NCBI RefSeq assembly: GCF_016904885.1
Contig: NZ_JADWYI010000001.1
Location: 4,836,001 to 4,900,000, forward strand
DNA length: 64,000 nt
Source: Archangium primigenium
GTDB lineage: Bacteria; Myxococcota; Myxococcia; Myxococcales; Myxococcaceae
Direction: 5' to 3'
Positions 21,796 through 60,335 of the stretch are shown here, in pieces. The notes below the pieces were generated by a model. That model was given only the letters and a program-made list of their open reading frames with translations. It was not told the origin of the DNA and did no database searches. Positions within the stretch are counted from its first letter, which is position 1, and each line of letters opens with the position of its first letter. A program made the position numbers and the translations under genes.

Positions 21796-23379
21796 CTAGA
21801 CGGGGGAGATTTCCCGGCGACGGAAGGGGCGCTCCACCTTCTTGTTCGCGGTGCGCTTGAGGGCGCGCGCGAGCAGCCGCCGGGTGTCGCGGGGGTCCAC
21901 CACGTCGTCCACCAGGGCCATGGCCGCGGTGCGCTCGATGCGGATGTGCTGGCGCAGGCCGTCCGCCAGCTCCTTCTTCAGGGCCTCGGCGGCCTCGGGG
22001 CTGCCCGCGGCCTGCAACTGCTTGCGCGCCGCGATGGACACCATGCCCTCGGGGCCCATGACGCCAATCTCCGCGCCCGGCCACGCCACGAGCAGATCCG
22101 GCTCGAAGGCGCGCCCGTTCATCACGTAGTAGCCCGCGCCATAGCCCTTGCGCACCACCACGGTGAACTTGGGCACGGTGGCGCTCGCCGCCGCGTACAT
22201 CATCTTCGCGCCGTGCCGGATGATGCCCTGCTGCTCCACCTTGGAGCCCACCATGAAGCCCGGCACGTCCTGCAGGAAGAGCAGCGGCACCTGGAAGGCG
22301 TCGCACAGGTTGATGAAGCGCGCGGCCTTGTCCGCCGCGTTCACGTCCAGGATGCCGCCCAGGAACATGGAGTTGTTGGCCACCACGCCCACCGGGTAGC
22401 CGTCGATGCGCGCCAGGCCCGTGATGAGGTTGCGCGCGAAGCGGGGCTTGAGGGGGAAGAACTTCCGGTCATCCACGAGCGACAGGATGACCTTGTGCAT
22501 GTCGAACGCCTGCCGGGGGCTCTCGGGCACCACCGTGAGCAGCGCCTCGTCGCGCCGGTCGAAGGGGTCCGCCGAGGGCCGACGGGGCGGGCGCTCCTCG
22601 CAGTGCGCGGGGAAGAAGGACAGGTACTCGCGGATGGCGTTGAGGCACGTGGCGTCATCCGCGTACTCGGCGTCCGCCACGCCCGACACCTCGTTGTGCA
22701 CCTTGGAGCCGCCCAGCTCCTCCTCGGTCACCTTCTCGCCCACCACGGACTCCACGAGGTAGGGGCCGCCGATGGCGATGGAGCTCGTGCCCTTCACCAT
22801 GGGCAGGAAGTCCGCCAGCGCGGGGATGTAGGCCGTGCCCGCGGCGCCGGGGCCCACCATGGCGGCCACCTGGGGCACCACGCCGCTCATCACCACCTGC
22901 TCGCGGAACAGGTAGCCCGTGTCCGCGAAGCCCGCCAGGCGCCGGGGATCGATGTCGCCGCCCGCCTCCAGGCGCGCGCCCGCCGAGTCCACCAGCCACA
23001 CCAGGGGGATGCGGTTCTTGAGCGCCAGGTCCCGCATGCGCGCCACCTTGCGCTCGCCCACCGTGCCGATGGAGCCGCCGAACACCGTGAAGTCGTAGGC
23101 GGCTACCGCCACGGGCCGACCGTCGATCTCCCCCACACCGGTGATGACGCCGTCCGCGGGCGAGGGCCGGCCCGGGTCCTCCTCCTCGGGCAGCGCGCCC
23201 TCGGCGCCCGCGAGCAGGCCCATCTCCTCGAAGGTGTTGGCGTCGAAGAGCAGCCGGAGACGCTCGCGTGCCGTCAACTTGCCCTTGGCGTGCTGGCGCT
23301 CGATGCGCTCGGGGCCTCCCAGGCCCTCGTTGCGGCGGCGCTGCTCGTCCAGCTTCTCCACGCGATCCTTCATCTTCAT
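21796..23379 (-). CDS. Acyl-CoA carboxylase, carboxyltransferase (beta) subunit
   Basis: 527 residues, the normal size of propionyl-/methylcrotonyl-CoA carboxylase beta subunits. Both crotonase-like halves are visible: VAAYDFTVFGGSIGTVGERKVARM and VDSAGARLEAGGDI in the first, then FLQDVPGFMVGSKVEQQGIIRHGAKM and KGYGAGYYVMNGRAFEPDLLVAWPGAEIGVMGPEGM in the second. It transfers CO2 from carboxybiotin to an acyl-CoA (propionyl-CoA likely). The start at 23379 (MKMKDRVEK) has a GGTGGAGA ribosome site. The biotin carboxylase/BCCP partner is not in the window. The exact acyl-CoA is uncertain. Confidence 0.88.
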   Translation of the reverse strand: MKMKDRVEKLDEQRRRNEGLGGPERIERQHAKGKLTARERLRLLFDANTFEEMGLLAGAEGALPEEEDPGRPSPADGVITGVGEIDGRPVAVAAYDFTVFGGSIGTVGERKVARMRDLALKNRIPLVWLVDSAGARLEAGGDIDPRRLAGFADTGYLFREQVVMSGVVPQVAAMVGPGAAGTAYIPALADFLPMVKGTSSIAIGGPYLVESVVGEKVTEEELGGSKVHNEVSGVADAEYADDATCLNAIREYLSFFPAHCEERPPRRPSADPFDRRDEALLTVVPESPRQAFDMHKVILSLVDDRKFFPLKPRFARNLITGLARIDGYPVGVVANNSMFLGGILDVNAADKAARFINLCDAFQVPLLFLQDVPGFMVGSKVEQQGIIRHGAKMMYAAASATVPKFTVVVRKGYGAGYYVMNGRAFEPDLLVAWPGAEIGVMGPEGMVSIAARKQLQAAGSPEAAEALKKELADGLRQHIRIERTAAMALVDDVVDPRDTRRLLARALKRTANKKVERPFRRREISPV

Positions 23380-52925: not shown

Positions 52926-53621
52926 CTAGTCCTCGATGACGCGGGGGAAGAGCGCGAAGCCCAGTCCCCAGTAAATCAGATTGAATCCCGACAGGAGCCC
53001 GAACCATGAGCCCAGCTGCTGCATGGGGTCGCCTTGCAGCACGAGCTGGGTCGCCTTGGCCGCCGCCAGGAGCGCCGGGATGATGAGCGGGAACAGCAAC
53101 AACGGAAGCAGCACGTCCCGTGCCCGCGCGTTGCTCGCGATGGCCGAGTACACCGTGCCCGGCGCGCTGATTCCCATGCAGCCGAGCACCAGGGTGGTCG
53201 CCAGGGGGACAGGCCCCATGACCAGCTCCACCCCGTAGAGCGCCACCATGACGGGCACCAGCAAGACGCCCAGCGCCACGAGCAAGAGGGTGTTGCCCAG
53301 GGCCTTGGACAGGAAGATGGCCCGCGCGTCCGTCGGCGCGAGCCGCAGCCCGTCCAGGGTGAGGTTCTCCTGCTCCACCCGGAAGGACTCCCCCAGGGCG
53401 AGCACGCTGGCGAACAGGAGGGCGAGCCACAGGTAGCCCCCCGCGTTGCGCGCCAGCAGCCGTGTGTCCGGCCCCACCGCGAAGGAGAAGAGCAGCAGCG
53501 TGGCCAGGGCGAAGAAGATGAGCGCGTTGAGCCGGGCGCGCGTGCGCCACTCGATGAGCAGGTCCTTGGCGAGCAAAACACCCACGGCCCGCGGCAGGGA
53601 GATGCGCCGGAAGTCGCTCAT
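52926..53621 (-). CDS. ccmB: ABC transporter permease CcmB
   Basis: 231 residues with six hydrophobic segments. KDLLIEWRTRARLNALIFFA at the N-terminus and RVEQENLTLDGLRLAP are typical of CcmB. With CcmA it forms the ABC complex that releases holo-CcmE. Its start overlaps the ccmA stop (ATGA, 53618-53621). Confidence 0.94.
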   Translation of the reverse strand: MSDFRRISLPRAVGVLLAKDLLIEWRTRARLNALIFFALATLLLFSFAVGPDTRLLARNAGGYLWLALLFASVLALGESFRVEQENLTLDGLRLAPTDARAIFLSKALGNTLLLVALGVLLVPVMVALYGVELVMGPVPLATTLVLGCMGISAPGTVYSAIASNARARDVLLPLLLFPLIIPALLAAAKATQLVLQGDPMQQLGSWFGLLSGFNLIYWGLGFALFPRVIED

Positions 53622-54280
53622 GCCGCCACCGCCCGGCCGTCCGACAGGTGGAGGCGCTCCTCGCACAGGCTCAGGCCCTGTTCGATGAGGTGGGTGGCGA
53701 GCACCACGGTGACGCCCGATGTCTTCAGCTCGCCGATGATGGCCTCCATGGCCGCGATGCCGGCGGGATCCAGCTCCCCGAAGGGCTCGTCCAGCAGCGC
53801 CACCGCGGGCTTCTTGAGCAGCAGTCGCGCGATGGCCAGGCGCTTGCGCATGCCCGCGGAGAACTGCCGCACGGGGCGTTCCGTGCGCTGCGTCAGCCCC
53901 ACCTTGCCGAGCAGGCCCTCGGCCACGTCCGCCGGAGACGCCACGCCCAACAGCCGCGCCAGCACCACCAGGTTCTGCTGCGCCGTCAGGTCCTCATAAA
54001 GGAAGCTCGCGTGGGACAGCAGCGCCACCTCGCGGCGCACCTGCTCGCGCTCCTGCACACAGTCTCGCCCACGCACCTCCACCCGGCCATGGGTGGGGGA
54101 GAGCGCCGTGGCCACCAGCCGCAGGAGCGTCGTCTTCCCGGAGCCGTTGTGCCCGGTGAGCAGCAACGAGCGCCCCTGGGGCAGGGAGTAGCTCAAGCGC
54201 GCCAGGGCCCAATGGCGGCCATAGCGCTTGCTGACGTCATGGAAGGCGAGCGCGGGGGGCGGCGCGGGAGAAGCATCCAT
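53618..54280 (-). CDS. ccmA: ABC transporter ATP-binding protein CcmA
   Basis: 220 residues. Walker A GHNGSGKTT, the CcmA-type signature FSAGMRKRLAIARLLL, Walker B VALLDEPFGELD and the switch His in VVLATH are all present. It is the first gene of the minus-strand ccm operon; the promoter must lie in the region above 54280, shared with the divergent polysaccharide operon. Confidence 0.95.
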   Translation of the reverse strand: MDASPAPPPALAFHDVSKRYGRHWALARLSYSLPQGRSLLLTGHNGSGKTTLLRLVATALSPTHGRVEVRGRDCVQEREQVRREVALLSHASFLYEDLTAQQNLVVLARLLGVASPADVAEGLLGKVGLTQRTERPVRQFSAGMRKRLAIARLLLKKPAVALLDEPFGELDPAGIAAMEAIIGELKTSGVTVVLATHLIEQGLSLCEERLHLSDGRAVAA

Positions 54281-54738
54281 CGGCGGGAGCGTTCGTAACT
54301 GGAAACTTCTCCACACTCCAGCGAAAGCACCCGGGGCCGCCTGGGCGGCGAGGGGACACGGCGCCTCGGAGAAGGGCGGCAGGTGATCTCCCTCGGAGGG
54401 CAATTTTCCGTCCCGCCCCGGGACCGAGGGGGTGGACCGGGGGACAGAAGAGGAGAACTTTTTTCAGCCTCCGCTCGGCCGCCCGGCCGCCCTCTCCAGA
54501 ACGGACAGGCGGGGGTTGCCCGGATAACGGGGCACTTGTCAGCGGCGGAACGGTGACTGTTTCACCCCGTCAACACCTCCATTGCGGGGATCACCCCCCG
54601 TGGACGGCACGCCCTGGGCAAGGACTTACCCTATGCGAGGGTGCCCCTTTCCCGGAGGGGGCCTGGGAATCCGCTGGCATACCGGGTGCAAGGAAACGCC
54701 GCAGAAGCATGCGGAGTCACCTGGAGAGGAAAACAGCG
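54281..54738. other. Divergent regulatory region between ccmA and the polysaccharide operon
   Basis: About 458 bases with no convincing protein gene. It must hold the promoters for both operons. A sigma-54-type element lies at 54675-54690. The rest holds a T-run (about 54464) and a GC-rich stretch without other structure I can support. Confidence 0.5.
54675..54690 (+). promoter_or_regulatory. Sigma-54-like -24/-12 promoter element
   Basis: TGGCAT, 5 bases (ACCGG), then GTGCA: the invariant GG and GC are 10 bases apart, as in the consensus TGGCAC-N5-TTGCA. A start of transcription about 12 bases downstream would leave a leader of roughly 38 bases that carries the GGAGAGG ribosome site of the first gene. 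Confidence 0.5.
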
Positions 54739-55920
54739 ATGGACATGCGAGGCGTGGTGCGGCGGGCGATGAAGTCGGCGGCGGCGGGGGTGCTCCACCA
54801 CAGTGGATTGCGCAAGGCCCTGGCCTCCTACAGGCGGCACCAGTCGGGTGGCCGCCGGGTGCTCATCGTCAGTTATCACCGGGTGGTGGAGGACTTCTTC
54901 GGGGAGCTGCAGCGCTCCATCCCCGGCCTGCTCATCTCCCAGGAGACGTTCCGTCGGCACCTGGAGGGCCTGTCCGCGGCGGGCTACAAGTTCGCCACGA
55001 TCGGCGAGGCGCTGGACGTGATGTCCGGGGCGAAGACGGCCCACGACGACCTGTGCGTGGTGACGTTCGATGACGGCTACCGGGACGTGTACCGCTACGC
55101 CTACCCGGTCCTCAAGGAGATGGGCGTGCCGGCCATCACCTACCTGCCCTCGAACCTCATCGGCACGGACTTCCGCTTCAACCACGACCGGCTCTTCCAC
55201 CTGGTGCACCAGGTGCAGGCGCAGGGCTTCCAGCCGATGTTCGACGTGCTGGAGGAGCCCGCGGCCAGCCTGATGACGGAGGTGATGTCCGGGCGCAAGC
55301 GCCTGTCCGCCGCGCTCGACGACTTCATCGGCCATCACTCCTCGGCCACGCTCGTGGACACCATCCACGCGCTGGAGGCGCGCCTGGGCCCCGACGTGCC
55401 CAAGCTGCCCGAGCAGGGAGACCTGATGAACTGGGACGAGGTGCGCGAGATGGCCCGGGACGGGTTCGAGTTCGGCGCGCACACGCTCGGCCACGTGGTG
55501 CTCACCCACGAGCCCCTGGACGTGGTGGAGCGCGAGGTGCGTGAGTCCAAGGCCATCATCGAGCGCGAGCTGGGCACGCCCGTGCGCGACTTCGCCTACT
55601 GCAACGGCTGGTACTCGGACGACGTCATCGACGTGCTCATGCGCAACGGCTTCCGCTCGGCCGTCACCACCGAGGACATGTCCAACCGCATCGGCGGCAA
55701 CCCCTTCACCCTCAAGCGCAAGGTGCTCTGGGAGAACTTCAGCGTGGGGGTGACGGGCAGCTACTCGCCGAGCCTCACCGTGTGCCAGCTGGACGACTGC
55801 TTCGGCACCCTGGGCATGCGCGAGCCGGTGCTCGGCCGCCGCCCGCAGCGCACGGAGAAGGACAAGGACGCGCTCTCGCCGCCGCCCAGCCCCATCATCC
55901 AGGAAGGGGTCGCCTGGTGA
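54739..55920 (+). CDS. Polysaccharide deacetylase (NodB-type)
   Basis: 393 residues. The NodB homology domain is visible: VLIVSYHRV, VVTFDDGYRDVYRYAYPVLKE with the catalytic Asp pair, FGAHTLGHVVLTH with metal-binding His, and FAYCNGWYSDDV. It removes N-acetyl groups from a polysaccharide or its lipid-linked precursor. ATG 54739 is chosen for the GGAGAGG site 9 bases upstream. It heads a five-gene operon and corresponds, by order, to the exoL position of the M. xanthus spore-coat locus as I remember it. Confidence 0.85.
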   Translation: MDMRGVVRRAMKSAAAGVLHHSGLRKALASYRRHQSGGRRVLIVSYHRVVEDFFGELQRSIPGLLISQETFRRHLEGLSAAGYKFATIGEALDVMSGAKTAHDDLCVVTFDDGYRDVYRYAYPVLKEMGVPAITYLPSNLIGTDFRFNHDRLFHLVHQVQAQGFQPMFDVLEEPAASLMTEVMSGRKRLSAALDDFIGHHSSATLVDTIHALEARLGPDVPKLPEQGDLMNWDEVREMARDGFEFGAHTLGHVVLTHEPLDVVEREVRESKAIIERELGTPVRDFAYCNGWYSDDVIDVLMRNGFRSAVTTEDMSNRIGGNPFTLKRKVLWENFSVGVTGSYSPSLTVCQLDDCFGTLGMREPVLGRRPQRTEKDKDALSPPPSPIIQEGVAW

Positions 55921-57449
55921 GCGACGCTGTCCCCCCGAAGCCCGCCTCCTCCTTCATGGGGAAGGCGGGTCCCCTCGTGCTGGCCCGGCTGTTCACCGCC
56001 GGGCTCACGTTGTCCATTCCCCTCGTGCTCGCGCGGGTGTTGAGCCTCGCGGAGTACGGCACCTACTACCAGCTCTTCCTCATCGCCACGACGCTCTACT
56101 ACGTGCTGCCCTTCGGGGTGGTGCAGAGCCTCTATTACTTCCTGCCGCGCGCCGAGGAGAAGCGTCCCTGGCTCGGGCAGACGCTGTTGTTCATGTCCGC
56201 CGCGGGCGTGGTGGCCGCGGGCCTCGTGTGGGCCCTGCTGGGTCCCGTGGCGCGCCACTTCGACAACCCGGCGCTGCTCGAGCACCGGGGCACGCTCGCG
56301 CTCTACACCGCCTTCCTCCTGGGCTCCTTCCCGCTGGAGATCTCCCTCACCAGCCAGGGCAAGACGAAGCAGTCGGCGCTCGTCTACCTGGTGTCGGACG
56401 CGGTGCGCGCGGCCGCCATGGTGGTGCCGTGCCTCCTGGGCTTCGGGCTGCACGGGATGATGTGGGCGGTGGTGGGCTTCACCTTCCTGCGCTACGCGGC
56501 CACCTGGGTGGTGGCGCCGCGGGGCAGCACCGGTCCGCTCGTGCGGGCGGGGCTTTTGCGCGAGCAGCTCGTGTACGCGGCGCCCTTCGGCGCGGCCATG
56601 GCGCTCGCCATCCCCCAGCAGAACGCCCACCTCTATATGGTGGCGGGCGTGGTGAGCCCGGCCCTGTACGCGCTCTACCGGGTGGGCTGCTTCCAGCTGC
56701 CGGTGGTGGACCTGCTCTACACGCCCACGAGCGAGGTGCTCATGGTGCGGCTGGGCGAGCTGGAGAAGCAGGGCCGGCTGGAGGAGGGCGTGGAGGCGTT
56801 CCGCGAAGCCGCGGGCAAGCTCGCCTTCCTCTTCTTGCCCTTCAGCGCGTTCCTCTTCGCCGCCGCGCCCGAGTTCATCGGGGCGCTGTTCGGCGCGAAG
56901 TTCCTCGAGGCGGTGCCCATCTTCCGCGTCAGCGTGCTGGGCGTGGTGCTGGCGATCCTCCCCATGGACGGCGTGCTGCGCGCGCGGGGGCACACGCGGG
57001 CCATCTTCCTGTCCTACCTGGTGAAGGCGGCGGTGACGGTGCCGCTCGTGTGGGTGGGGGTCAAGCGCTTCGGGATGATGGGGGGCGTGGTGTCCTGGGC
57101 CGTGGCGGAGCTGGTGGGCAAGTGCACGCTGCTCGCGCGGGTGCCGGCGGCGCTGTCCACCCCCTCGCTGCGCCTGCGGGTGCGCGACCTCATCCCCTGG
57201 GGAGAGCTGGGCAAGGCGTCGCTGGCGGCCCTGGCGGCGGGGGGCGCGGTGTTCGCCCTGCGCGCCACCACCCACCAGGCGTGGAGCGGCCTGCCCGAGG
57301 GCTTCGTCTGGCGGGCGCTGCCCCTGGCCGTGGCGGGGGTCCTCTTCGTGCTGGGATATGTGGGTGTCTTGACGGCCACCGGGGTCCGGCCGCTGGGTTT
57401 CTTGACGGCACTGCGCTCGCGCCGGAACGCGGGGGCGGTGATCCGCTAG
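55917..57449 (+). CDS. wzx: Polysaccharide flippase (Wzx/MOP family)
   Basis: 510 residues with about 12-14 hydrophobic segments, inner membrane. The start VLARLFTAGLTLSIPLVLARVLSLAEYGTYYQLFL is the typical first-helix region of Wzx/oligosaccharidyl-lipid flippases. It moves undecaprenyl-linked repeat units across the membrane. The start is GTG 55917, overlapping the deacetylase stop (GTGA). No Wzy polymerase is encoded nearby. Confidence 0.87.
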   Translation: MSDAVPPKPASSFMGKAGPLVLARLFTAGLTLSIPLVLARVLSLAEYGTYYQLFLIATTLYYVLPFGVVQSLYYFLPRAEEKRPWLGQTLLFMSAAGVVAAGLVWALLGPVARHFDNPALLEHRGTLALYTAFLLGSFPLEISLTSQGKTKQSALVYLVSDAVRAAAMVVPCLLGFGLHGMMWAVVGFTFLRYAATWVVAPRGSTGPLVRAGLLREQLVYAAPFGAAMALAIPQQNAHLYMVAGVVSPALYALYRVGCFQLPVVDLLYTPTSEVLMVRLGELEKQGRLEEGVEAFREAAGKLAFLFLPFSAFLFAAAPEFIGALFGAKFLEAVPIFRVSVLGVVLAILPMDGVLRARGHTRAIFLSYLVKAAVTVPLVWVGVKRFGMMGGVVSWAVAELVGKCTLLARVPAALSTPSLRLRVRDLIPWGELGKASLAALAAGGAVFALRATTHQAWSGLPEGFVWRALPLAVAGVLFVLGYVGVLTATGVRPLGFLTALRSRRNAGAVIR

Positions 57450-57538: not shown

Positions 57539-58069
57539 ATGGGGATCGACGCGATTGGGTTGTACCGGCTCGGACACAAGCTGCACCAGCGGGGCGTGCC
57601 CGTGCTGCCAGGAATGCTGCGCAAGGTCATCCACTTCCTGCATGGCTCGTATCTGCCGCCCGAGGCGGAGATCGGCGAGGGCACCCAGCTGGGCTACGGC
57701 GGCATGGGCATCGTCATCCACAAGGACGCGAAGATTGGCCGGCACTGCCTCATCTCCCACCAGGTGACGGTGGGCGGGCGCTCGGGCCTCAAGCAGCTGC
57801 CGGTGATCGGCGACTACGTGCGCATCGGCGCGGGGGCGAAGATCCTCGGCCCGGTGCACATCGGCGACTTCGCCATCATCGGCGCCAACGCCGTGGTGGT
57901 GAAGGACGTGGCGCCGGGCGCGGTGGTGGGGGGCATTCCCGCGCGGGAGATCCGCAAGGATCCGGATCCGCTGGCCACCTACGAGCGCGAGATGGGACTG
58001 CGTCCCCAGGTGGACCGGCGCAACGAGGTGAAGGCCGTGCCTCCGCCCCTGACCTCCGTCGCGCGCTAG
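57539..58069 (+). CDS. Hexapeptide-repeat acetyltransferase (serine acetyltransferase-like)
   Basis: 176 residues. The middle part is a left-handed beta-helix: IGEGTQLGYGGMGIVIHKDAKIGRHCLISHQVTVGG, IGDYVRIGAGAKILGPVHIGDFAIIGANAVVV and KDVAPGAVVGGIPAREI. This matches CysE/EpsC-type O-acetyltransferases without the N-terminal CysE domain, so sugar acetylation in polysaccharide synthesis is more likely than cysteine synthesis. GTG 57536 is an alternative start. It belongs to the polysaccharide operon. Confidence 0.85.
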   Translation: MGIDAIGLYRLGHKLHQRGVPVLPGMLRKVIHFLHGSYLPPEAEIGEGTQLGYGGMGIVIHKDAKIGRHCLISHQVTVGGRSGLKQLPVIGDYVRIGAGAKILGPVHIGDFAIIGANAVVVKDVAPGAVVGGIPAREIRKDPDPLATYEREMGLRPQVDRRNEVKAVPPPLTSVAR

Positions 58070-58087: not shown

Positions 58088-59146
58088 ATGAAAGTGCTCC
58101 TGGTGGGTGACTACCCGCCGCCCCATGGGGGTGTGGCGGTGCACGTGCAACAGCTCCACGGCTCGCTGCGCGAGGGTGGGGTGGAGACGGTGGTGCTGGA
58201 CATCGGCAAGGGCGGACGGCCCGCGCCGGACGTGCTGCCGGTACGAACCCCGGCCGCGTTCGGCCTGACGCTCGCGCGCTTCCTGCGCGAGGGCTGGACG
58301 GTGCACCTGCACACGAGCGGCAACAACCCGAAGTCCTGGCTGCTCGCCGCCGCCGCGTCCGTGCCCGCGCCTCGCTCGGGGCGGGTCATCACCCTGCACT
58401 CGGGGCTCATCCCGGACTACCTGGCGGGCTCCCTGTCCCGTCGGCTCCTGGCCCGGGCGGCCCTGGCGGGCTACGGACGGGTGGTGGCCGTGTCCGAGGC
58501 GGTGCGCACGGCGCTGGTGGACTGCGGCGTGCCCGCGGAGAAGGTGGTCGTCTACCCGGCCTTCTGCGGCTCGCAGGTGCGTCCGGGCGAGCCGACCCCG
58601 GCCATTCTCGAGGCGCGCGCGCGCAGGCAGACGCTGCTCGCCATGGCGCACCACCCCTCGCCCGTCTATGGCCGCGCGCTGATGTTCCGCGCGCTGCGGC
58701 GGATCGCGGACGGGCGGCCCGGAGTGGGGCTCGCCGTGTTCGGTCCGGGAACCCGTTCGGAGGACTTCATGCGCGATGCGCGCGAAGCCGGTGTCGAGTC
58801 GCTGTTGGAGAACCTGTGGGAGCTGGAGCACGCCCAGGCGCTCGCCCTCATGGCGCGCTGTGACGCGTTCATCCGTCCCACCACCCATGACGGAGACGCC
58901 ATCTCCGTGCGCGAGGCGCTCGCCCTGGGTGTTCCCTGTGTGGCCAGTGACGTGTGTGCCCGTCCTCAAGGCGCCCACACCTTCCGGGCAGGTGACGCGG
59001 AGGACCTGGCGGCCCAGGTTCACCACGCGCTCGATGCGGGGCCCGTGCAGGTGGTGTCGCCCGATGCCGGGCCCGTGTTGAAGAAACTTTATGGAGAGCT
59101 GACTCCATCCACGATTTTCGGAGGCGAGATACATGCGGCGCAGTGA
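58088..59146 (+). CDS. Glycosyltransferase, GT4-like (GT-B)
   Basis: 352 residues. The N-terminal half begins VLLVGDYPPPHGGVAVHVQQL, the usual Gly-rich acceptor loop of GT4 enzymes; the C-terminal half has FIRPTTHDGDAISVREALALGVPCVASDV, containing the E-x7-E-like nucleotide-sugar motif. No membrane segment. It adds a sugar to the lipid-linked unit. Its end overlaps the next gene by 14 bases (59133-59146). Confidence 0.88.
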   Translation: MKVLLVGDYPPPHGGVAVHVQQLHGSLREGGVETVVLDIGKGGRPAPDVLPVRTPAAFGLTLARFLREGWTVHLHTSGNNPKSWLLAAAASVPAPRSGRVITLHSGLIPDYLAGSLSRRLLARAALAGYGRVVAVSEAVRTALVDCGVPAEKVVVYPAFCGSQVRPGEPTPAILEARARRQTLLAMAHHPSPVYGRALMFRALRRIADGRPGVGLAVFGPGTRSEDFMRDAREAGVESLLENLWELEHAQALALMARCDAFIRPTTHDGDAISVREALALGVPCVASDVCARPQGAHTFRAGDAEDLAAQVHHALDAGPVQVVSPDAGPVLKKLYGELTPSTIFGGEIHAAQ

Positions 59147-60335
59147 GGAAATGGATCTGTCCCGACGTTCCCTGCGTGGCAGGGACCTGGTGGTTTTCTC
59201 CAATGACTGGGATGGGGATCCGCTCTCCAAGGTCCACATCATGCGGATCCTGTCGCGAGACAACCGCGTGCTGTGGGTGAACAGCATTGGCAACCGGGCG
59301 CCCAAGGCGAACGCCCACGACGTCAAGCGCATCTGGAACAAGCTGTCCAAGTTCACCGAGGGCGTGCGCGAGGTGGAGCCGAACCTGTTCGTGCTCGCGC
59401 CGCTGGCGGTGCCCTTCTACGGCTCGGAGGCGGTGCGCGCGTTCAACCGCACGCTCCTGCGCGCCCAGGTGCTGCGCGCCATGCGCCAGCTGCACTTCAA
59501 GCGGCCCATCTCCTGGTCGTTCCTGCCGGCCTCGGCGCCGGTGTCCGGGCGGCTCGGCGAGGAGTTCGTCGTCTACCACTGCGTGGACGAGTTCTCCGCG
59601 TTCAGCGACACGAACGGGCGGCACATCGCGGAGATGGAGGAGCAGCTGCTCAAACGCGCGGACGTGGTCATCACGTCGGCCGAGCGGCTGCGCGAGAACA
59701 AGGCGCGCATCAACCCGCGCACCTCGCTCGTGCGCCACGGCGTGGACTTCAACCACTTCGTGAAGGCGTGTGACGCGTCCACGCCCATCCCGGCGGACAT
59801 CGCCAACCTGCCCAAGCCCATCCTGGGCTTCTTCGGGCTGGTGGCGGACTGGGTGGACATGGAGGCCCTGGCCGCGGCGGCCAAGGCGCACCCCGAGGGC
59901 TCGGTGGTCATCATCGGCAAGGTGGCGCCGGACGTGGATCCGGCGGCGCTCAAGGCGCTGCCCAACGTGCACTTCCTCGGGCGCAAGTCCTACGCGGAGC
60001 TGCCCGGCTACTGCCGCGCCTTCGACGTGGCGCTCATGCCCTTCCGGGTCAACGAGCTCACGCTCAACGCCAACCCGCTCAAGGTGCGCGAGTACCTCGC
60101 GGCGGGCCTGCCGGTGGTGTCCTCGGACATCCCCGAGGTGCGCAAGGTGGGCCTGTGCAAGCTGGCCACGGACGAGGCGGACTTCGTGCGGAAGATCGAC
60201 GAGTGCCTGGCCGAGGGCGCCGGTCCCTCGCGCGAGCGCGCCGAGCGCATCCGCCACGAGAGCTGGGAGGCCAAGGTGGAGGAGATCCGCCAGCACGTGG
60301 GCGAGGCCATGCTCAAGGCGGGCCGCACCTTGTAG
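59133..60335 (+). CDS. Glycosyltransferase, GT-B fold
   Basis: 400 residues. DLVVFSNDWDGDPLSKVHIMRIL near the N-terminus and, in the C-terminal half, PILGFFGLVADWVDMEALAAAA, VHFLGRKSYAELPGYCRAFDVALMPFRVNELTLNANPLKVREYLAAGLPVVSSDIPEV. This is a GT1/GT4-like architecture with a conserved Glu-rich donor site. It is the last gene of the polysaccharide operon, followed by a terminator. ATG 59133 overlaps the previous gene; ATG 59151 is an alternative start. Confidence 0.87.
   Translation: MRRSEEMDLSRRSLRGRDLVVFSNDWDGDPLSKVHIMRILSRDNRVLWVNSIGNRAPKANAHDVKRIWNKLSKFTEGVREVEPNLFVLAPLAVPFYGSEAVRAFNRTLLRAQVLRAMRQLHFKRPISWSFLPASAPVSGRLGEEFVVYHCVDEFSAFSDTNGRHIAEMEEQLLKRADVVITSAERLRENKARINPRTSLVRHGVDFNHFVKACDASTPIPADIANLPKPILGFFGLVADWVDMEALAAAAKAHPEGSVVIIGKVAPDVDPAALKALPNVHFLGRKSYAELPGYCRAFDVALMPFRVNELTLNANPLKVREYLAAGLPVVSSDIPEVRKVGLCKLATDEADFVRKIDECLAEGAGPSRERAERIRHESWEAKVEEIRQHVGEAMLKAGRTL

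Follow-up and report, generated by a model that had tools for sequence, protein, structure and literature searches.

We identified a -24/-12 element of the sigma-54 type in front of the exoL-P operon of Archangium primigenium, in a 64,000-nucleotide stretch of DNA which was analysed as a whole and which we refer to as the window, and we observe that this element is conserved upstream of nearly all exoL orthologs that we could read. We consider it highly probable (roughly 85%) that this element is the exoL-P core promoter, read by sigma-54 RNA polymerase, with an upstream dyad as the best candidate site for an enhancer-binding protein (EBP). At every sigma-54 promoter, the polymerase stays closed until an AAA+ EBP acts. 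Here, sigma-54 RNA polymerase would bind the -24/-12 element and wait in the closed state, and an AAA+ EBP would bind upstream, loop over and open the promoter with ATP. The dyad is the best candidate for the place where this EBP would dock, because exoA-I, a second spore-coat operon, and a few more genes have the same dyad upstream of their sigma-54 promoters. Since exoL-P and exoA-I carry the same kind of switch and a similar upstream site, they are probably turned on together, most likely by one EBP that would act from the dyad at sporulation. In M. xanthus, rpoN, nla6 and fdgA/exoA rise early during glycerol-induced sporulation (PMC2875238).

Table 1. Features of the exoL-P region, in window positions
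Feature	Position	Strand	Sequence, evidence and remarks
Divergent ABC-transporter ATPase gene	53618..54280	-	PF00005; common intergenic region with exoL
Dyad	54454..54467	.	AGAACTTTTTTCAG (other strand CTGAAAAAAGTTCT); candidate enhancer, 221 bases before the -24 box; 20.1 bits, dyad matrix
Conserved block	54537..54563	.	TGTCAGCGGCGGAACGGTGACTGTTTC; alignment; dyad score in the window 1.6 bits
Conserved block	54615..54630	.	TGGGCAAGGACTTACC; top 16-column block, 0.94, in 10 group g1/g3 regions
-24/-12 sigma-54 core promoter (predicted)	54675..54690	+	TGGCATACCGGGTGCA, TGGCAT-ACCGG-GTGCA; sequence, consensus, ortholog conservation
Predicted transcription start	54701	+	Usual spacing to the -12 GC
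Ribosome-binding site of the first gene	54723..54729	+	GGAGAGG; sequence
Gene 1, polysaccharide deacetylase, MXAN_3259 ortholog	54739..55920	+	PF01522, synteny
Gene 2, Wzx-type flippase, exoM/MXAN_3260 ortholog	55917..57449	+	PF13440, synteny
Gene 3, hexapeptide (serine O-acetyltransferase-like) acetyltransferase, exoN type	57539..58069	+	PF00132, synteny; start codon uncertain
Gene 4, glycosyltransferase	58088..59146	+	PF13439/PF13692, synteny
Gene 5, glycosyltransferase	59133..60335	+	PF13692, synteny

The element contains T-GG at 54675-54677 and GC at 54688-54689, i.e., GG-N10-GC, the GG and GC being 10 bases apart in a TGGCAC-N5-TTGCW-like context, and 11 of the 12 specified positions of the consensus TGGCAYRNNNNYTGCW are matched. 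The original prediction, made from this sequence, had described a GG-N10-GC core within TGGCAT-N5-GTGCA, and this core is present as it was described. It had also proposed a leader of about 38 bases ending at the ribosome-binding site of the first gene; the length is correct, and the endpoint is not, as this is the distance from the predicted start to the ATG at 54739.

Orthologs of exoL (49-100% identity) were listed in 69 genomes, and the upstream DNA was read for 66 of these, leaving out three (G019, G021 and G026) where the contig holds no upstream sequence. The pattern [T/C]GGCA-N7-TGCA is present in 65 of the 66 upstream regions, the window included (64 with T and one with C), in a count where related genomes are not independent, compared with 1 of 66 on the reverse strand and 15 of 1,320 shuffled sequences (1.1%). 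A lack of conservation in orthologous regions, named beforehand as evidence against a conserved -24/-12 promoter, was thus looked for and not found. In the 65 regions the element sits 33-106 bases before the nominal start codon, and both this distance and the bases between the two boxes vary among orthologs, with the element itself being kept. When 64 regions were aligned without anchoring on the motif, the element was the top conserved 16-column block (0.84, with the next at 0.71); within single genera it ranks second to sixth, with other blocks equal or better, because close relatives share much of their sequence. The single exception, L093 from genome G051, has an exoL gene at 62% identity and no element, and the best ExoA-like match in this genome has an E value of only 5e-29, one case that fits the loss of a spore-coat role.

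The operon downstream of the element was assigned using Pfam and NCBIfam models together with 29 named loci found via the deacetylase. Of these loci, 24 contain the five genes in order, including that of M. xanthus AM003; three more (L007, L023 and L028) are cut by contig ends, and in two from MAGs (L026 and L027) the fourth gene is not found at that place. The divergent ABC gene is located upstream in 24 of the 29, and the other five have little or no upstream sequence. The order that had been proposed to match M. xanthus (deacetylase, Wzx, acetyltransferase and two glycosyltransferases) is confirmed by both the protein family models and the named loci, AM003 included, and the window operon is supported as the ortholog of the M. 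xanthus operon holding exoM (MXAN_3260). Matches of gene 1 to PgaB/IcaB-type N-deacetylase models are partial, weak and below cut-off, and those of gene 3 to EpsC/CysE-type models are likewise below their cut-offs. We take gene 1 to be exoL, gene 4 to be exoO and gene 5 to be exoP, and the operon to correspond to MXAN_3259-3263. In M. xanthus, ExoM, the product of MXAN_3260, is the flippase that acts on spore-coat polysaccharide, which also requires the acetyltransferase gene exoN (PMC7484181); by analogy with ExoM function, the window operon probably makes spore-coat polysaccharide. Our survey of loci also included BNCN01000010.1, annotated as 'Comamonas sp. KCTC 72670', where the myxobacterial exoL-P locus is complete and the ABC gene adjoins it, and this record looks like a mislabelled Myxococcus-type genome.

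The second spore-coat operon, exoA-I (fdgA/exo), is MXAN_3225-3233 in M. xanthus (PMC2875238, PMC4320627), and we located it via the polysaccharide-export family and a search with ExoA. For example, in the M. xanthus-like genome G062 a polysaccharide-export gene occurs 40 kb before exoL, the place expected for exoA-I. It is absent from the ten large proteins of the window that were scanned, and in the genome from which the window derives we find exoA 2 Mb from exoL (G000:C1:6926101-6926676), adjoined by an ExoB homolog (51% identity). With 70 exoA orthologs listed and three at contig ends left out (G024, G026 and G080), upstream DNA was read for 67, and every one of these 67 regions contains TGGCAC-N6-TGCT, that of the window's own genome (TGGCACGGCGACTGCT) included; the reverse strand gave no match and shuffled sequences gave 5 of 1,340. 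The -12 box of exoA-I ends in TGCT, whereas that of exoL-P ends in TGCA. The conserved -24/-12 promoter of exoA-I is new here, and its presence at a separate operon, in all 67 regions examined, strengthens the proposal that the exoL-P element represents conserved control of spore-coat synthesis.

The regions upstream of both operons share a dyad. A de novo motif search by expectation-maximisation covered the 250 bases that precede the -24 box and was run once on the exoL set (26 dereplicated regions) and once on the exoA set (24 dereplicated regions), with two shuffled sets as controls for each run (25 seeds, versus 50 for the real data). Both runs returned an AT-rich dyad, GAAAAA-N1-2-TTCC (about GGAAA-N2-TTTCC), with log-likelihoods of 188.6 for exoL (49.0 and 64.0 in the shuffles) and 186.5 for exoA (52.2 and 52.9). 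The two separate matrices were then used for a cross-test: with the exoA matrix, 23 of 64 exoL regions scored above the 99th percentile of the shuffles and nine above the best shuffle, and with the exoL matrix, 16 of 67 exoA regions scored above the 99th percentile and none above the best shuffle. No positive came in this test from the 17 other strict sigma-54 sites that the genome contains, nor from 63 stretches lying further upstream, at -800 to -550. A joint matrix reached at least 12 bits in 61 of 64 exoL regions (shuffles 13 of 320) and in all 67 exoA regions (shuffles 17 of 335), although these counts, like the bit score of the window dyad, come from a matrix trained on the regions that it scored. 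The exoL counts leave out L051, which is short, and L093, and the dyad scoring found no good dyad in three exoL regions where the promoter is present (L041, L094 and L096).

The dyad has a nearly fixed place at exoA, where the distance from its first base to the -24 box is 85-89 bases in 64 of 67 regions, and a variable one at exoL, from -78 to -221 (about -97, -142, -175 or -218, depending on genus). In the window it differs at one position from GRAAAAMNTTYC, a degree of match reached twice in the window where 0.36 occurrences are expected, and it coincides with an aligned block in 10 Cystobacter/Archangium-type regions. The other one-mismatch dyad, GGAAGAACTTCC, is at 22455-22466, away from the operon. 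A conserved enhancer site upstream of the promoter, which the original prediction had suggested looking for, has a candidate at both exoL and exoA. At the place of the conserved block 54537-54563, the group g3 relatives L035, L036, L038 and L040 contain a second good dyad (14.8-15.4 bits), which has decayed in the window. Two counts speak against specificity. By itself, the dyad pattern is only mildly commoner than its control (65 versus 38 in six genomes). Among 61 distinct dyad places, we examined 55, leaving out the five known exo sites and one on G000:C3, and found a full 12-of-12 sigma-54 element within 350 bases of six, with 34 having no sigma-54-like element of at least 10 positions within this distance.

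We scanned 96 genomes for both parts together, i.e., for GGAA-N2-TTTTNC followed after 65-95 bases by TGGCAY-N6-TGC. This combined pattern occurs at 33 places in 23 genomes and its reversed control at none, and by our assignment 18 of these places belong to exoA, nine to exoL, five to a gene encoding a YHS-domain protein and one to a lytic transglycosylase gene. In the other orientation, it occurs at 26 places in 25 genomes (control 0), comprising 18 at exoA, three at RpoH-like sigma genes (in the window's own genome and two others of its genus) and five others, of which at least two look fortuitous. The YHS-domain protein (73 residues, PF04945) was found in 66 of the 96 genomes; all 23 of the 30 loci that were readable have 11-12 of the 12 promoter positions, and the dyad is at -85 to -91 in 17 of these 23 and at -66 or -67 in five M. 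xanthus-like ones, with L344 having none. At the RpoH-like sigma loci, 11-12 of the 12 promoter positions are present in all 18 of 19 that were readable, and a good dyad in L301, L302, L303 and L318 only, the others having a variant or a different palindrome. In several of L311-L318, a near-perfect sigma-54 element follows about 87 bases after the palindrome GTAAC-N1-2-GTTAC, to which another EBP may bind. We infer that these sigma genes are orthologous to sigB and sigC; SigB, SigC and SigE are sigma-32 homologs needed for differentiation (reference list of PMC4320627), and sigB and sigC rise strongly during sporulation (PMC2875238). In the window's own genome, three strict sigma-54 elements (L104, L108 and L109) with a common downstream run, CTGCAATAACCCTTCTCC, lie 86-87 bases before open frames, and these form what we class as a small promoter family.

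Another place where the dyad is retained lies between nfsE and nfsF, in four genomes (G062, G034, G006 and G037; loci L389:8966-8979 of G062, L213, L215, L225 and L237), with 9-10 of 12 sigma-54 positions 69-80 bases further on. The nfs assignment in G062 agrees with Table 3 of PMC2875238, where the reading frame lengths of nfsC, nfsE, nfsF and nfsH are exact and those of nfsB and nfsG are within two residues. We treat this site as a lead only, because the element is weak, transcription from it in G062 would begin about 3 bases ahead of the nfsF ATG, and a single nfs promoter, upstream of nfsA, is described (PMC2875238).

Two other explanations concern the promoter segment itself. The lone strict match in the window, TGGCAYN6TGCA, is weak evidence and could be chance, as 0.34 matches are expected, at least one occurs in 27 of 100 shuffled windows, and genome-wide the strict pattern is rarer than its reversed control (18 versus 64). 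That the element is a chance resemblance in a GC-rich genome, with the operon read from another promoter, is nevertheless highly improbable, because it persists in 65 of 66 orthologs despite changes in the bases between its boxes, where shuffling predicts 1.1% (15 of 1,320), and because it is the best block of an unanchored alignment. Still more improbable is that conservation of the segment reflects a folded RNA leader, with riboswitch-like hairpins from about 54682: although 54672-54745 folds at -25.4 kcal/mol (z -2.88, with 4 of 200 shuffles equally good), an Rfam search gave eight matches up to an E value of 5 and none near its gathering score, all seven pairs of the outer stem form in the window only (4-6 of 7 in nine close relatives, where the inner hairpin keeps 1-3 of 5), and a start at 54701 would exclude the 5′ side of the stem. 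An Rfam-type leader was rejected on both counts, family match and conserved pairing.

Which protein acts at the promoter is a separate matter. Nla6 is said to bind the exo and MXAN3259 promoters, reportedly through the half-site C(C/A)ACGNNGNC (attributed to Giglio et al., J Bacteriol, 2015), and it is possible, if somewhat doubtful, that Nla6 is the direct activator from such direct-repeat half-sites. Consistent with this, nla6 (MXAN_4042) is up 20.6-fold in glycerol sporulation (PMC2875238), and the one-mismatch half-site CCACGGAGGG occurs at -87 or -91 in the M. xanthus-like regions L052-L056, L058 and L059. Upstream of exoL, however, the half-site is not enriched: with up to one mismatch it gives 142 matches (shuffles average 163.2) in 58 of 64 regions (shuffles 58.0), and exact matches number six against 8.6; it has no single kept place across genera, and it does not resemble the conserved dyad. 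The Nla6 control that had been predicted thus does not follow from this half-site, although Nla6 may still bind the dyad. The Nla28 half-site, CT(C/G)CG(C/G)AG (PMC9765219, PMC7910581), is likewise not clearly enriched upstream of exoL (80 one-mismatch matches versus 69.3 in shuffles). It is rather unlikely that the dyad serves the divergent ABC gene or a regulator outside the EBP class, with the EBP of this promoter binding elsewhere, e.g., at 54537-54563 or 54615-54630. The exoL dyad does lie in the intergenic region shared with the ABC gene, the block 54615-54630 is more conserved in groups g1/g3 than the dyad block (0.94 versus 0.86), PMC4320627 mentions FruA binding upstream of the exo promoter, and in three genomes (L210, L220 and L226) the dyad occurs upstream of a GAF histidine kinase gene with no sigma-54 element nearby. 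Against this, exoA and the YHS gene are preceded by this dyad too, in most cases at a distance of 85-91 bases from the -24 box, and the consensus sites given for MrpC (TGTYN8RAC) and FruA (GGGYRN4-6YGGG) in PMC4320627 are unlike it. The GAF histidine kinase dyad (L220/L388 in the window's own genome, L210 and L226) is a strong one, located just 5′ of the gene, which is divergent from another gene.

We leave the activator unnamed, because no EBP is a conserved neighbour of the sites. In G062, there are 60 matches to PF00158 (53 with E below 1e-49), one EBP being about 11 kb from exoA and, by gene numbering, perhaps ActB, and an EBP is also found near exoA in L246. An EBP with a PocR domain is encoded about 3 kb past nfsH in G062 (L389:15301-16890) and in L392, and was not found by tblastn in the nfs-locus stretches L390 and L391; none was found that is tied by position to the sites in all the genomes looked at.

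Through spore-coat synthesis, whose operons are scattered, a myxobacterial rod becomes a resistant spore. Nla6 control of exo and MXAN3259 has reportedly been described already. A family-wide promoter, together with a site common to two unlinked operons, provides a concrete sequence with which to fish out the activator. We tentatively propose, at somewhat short of even odds, that GGAAA-N2-TTTCC is the enhancer of one EBP, as yet unnamed or wrongly modelled, and that it marks an ancient sporulation regulon of the family that would comprise exoA-I, exoL-P, the YHS gene, probably nfsF-H, the end of the nfs locus for spore-coat assembly, and, in some genera, RpoH-like sigma genes of the SigB/SigC type. 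If so, this site would differ from the published Nla6 half-site, and the YHS gene and the RpoH-like sigma genes would be predicted as further members. This dyad regulon is the more novel part of our findings than the promoter; our literature search found no description of the shared dyad, in a search that most subscription papers lay outside, so that its absence is not proven.

An in silico survey of sigma-54 regulons (PMC12316311) already predicted that genes for polysaccharide export in Myxococcia are under sigma-54 control, reporting an enrichment of such promoters at genes for export of polysaccharides (COG1596) and for glycosyltransferases; in the accessible part of that survey, the enhancer dyad and the exoL-P operon are not named. 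The window operon and exoL-P of M. xanthus AM003 agree in their five gene types and in gene order, their proteins are 67-78% identical, and AM003 has a promoter of its own, TGGCACCTCCCCTGCA. The two differ in that the window dyad is 221 bases before the -24 box, as opposed to 140-145 in most M. xanthus-like regions, and in that the exoL ATG is closer to the promoter in the window. The element under study is intergenic, whereas in M. xanthus many of the known sigma-54 promoters lie within genes. In its layout it is like the Nla28-type sigma-54 promoters of M. xanthus (PMC9765219, PMC7910581), which combine a -24/-12 element with an upstream EBP site, the latter being represented here by the candidate dyad.
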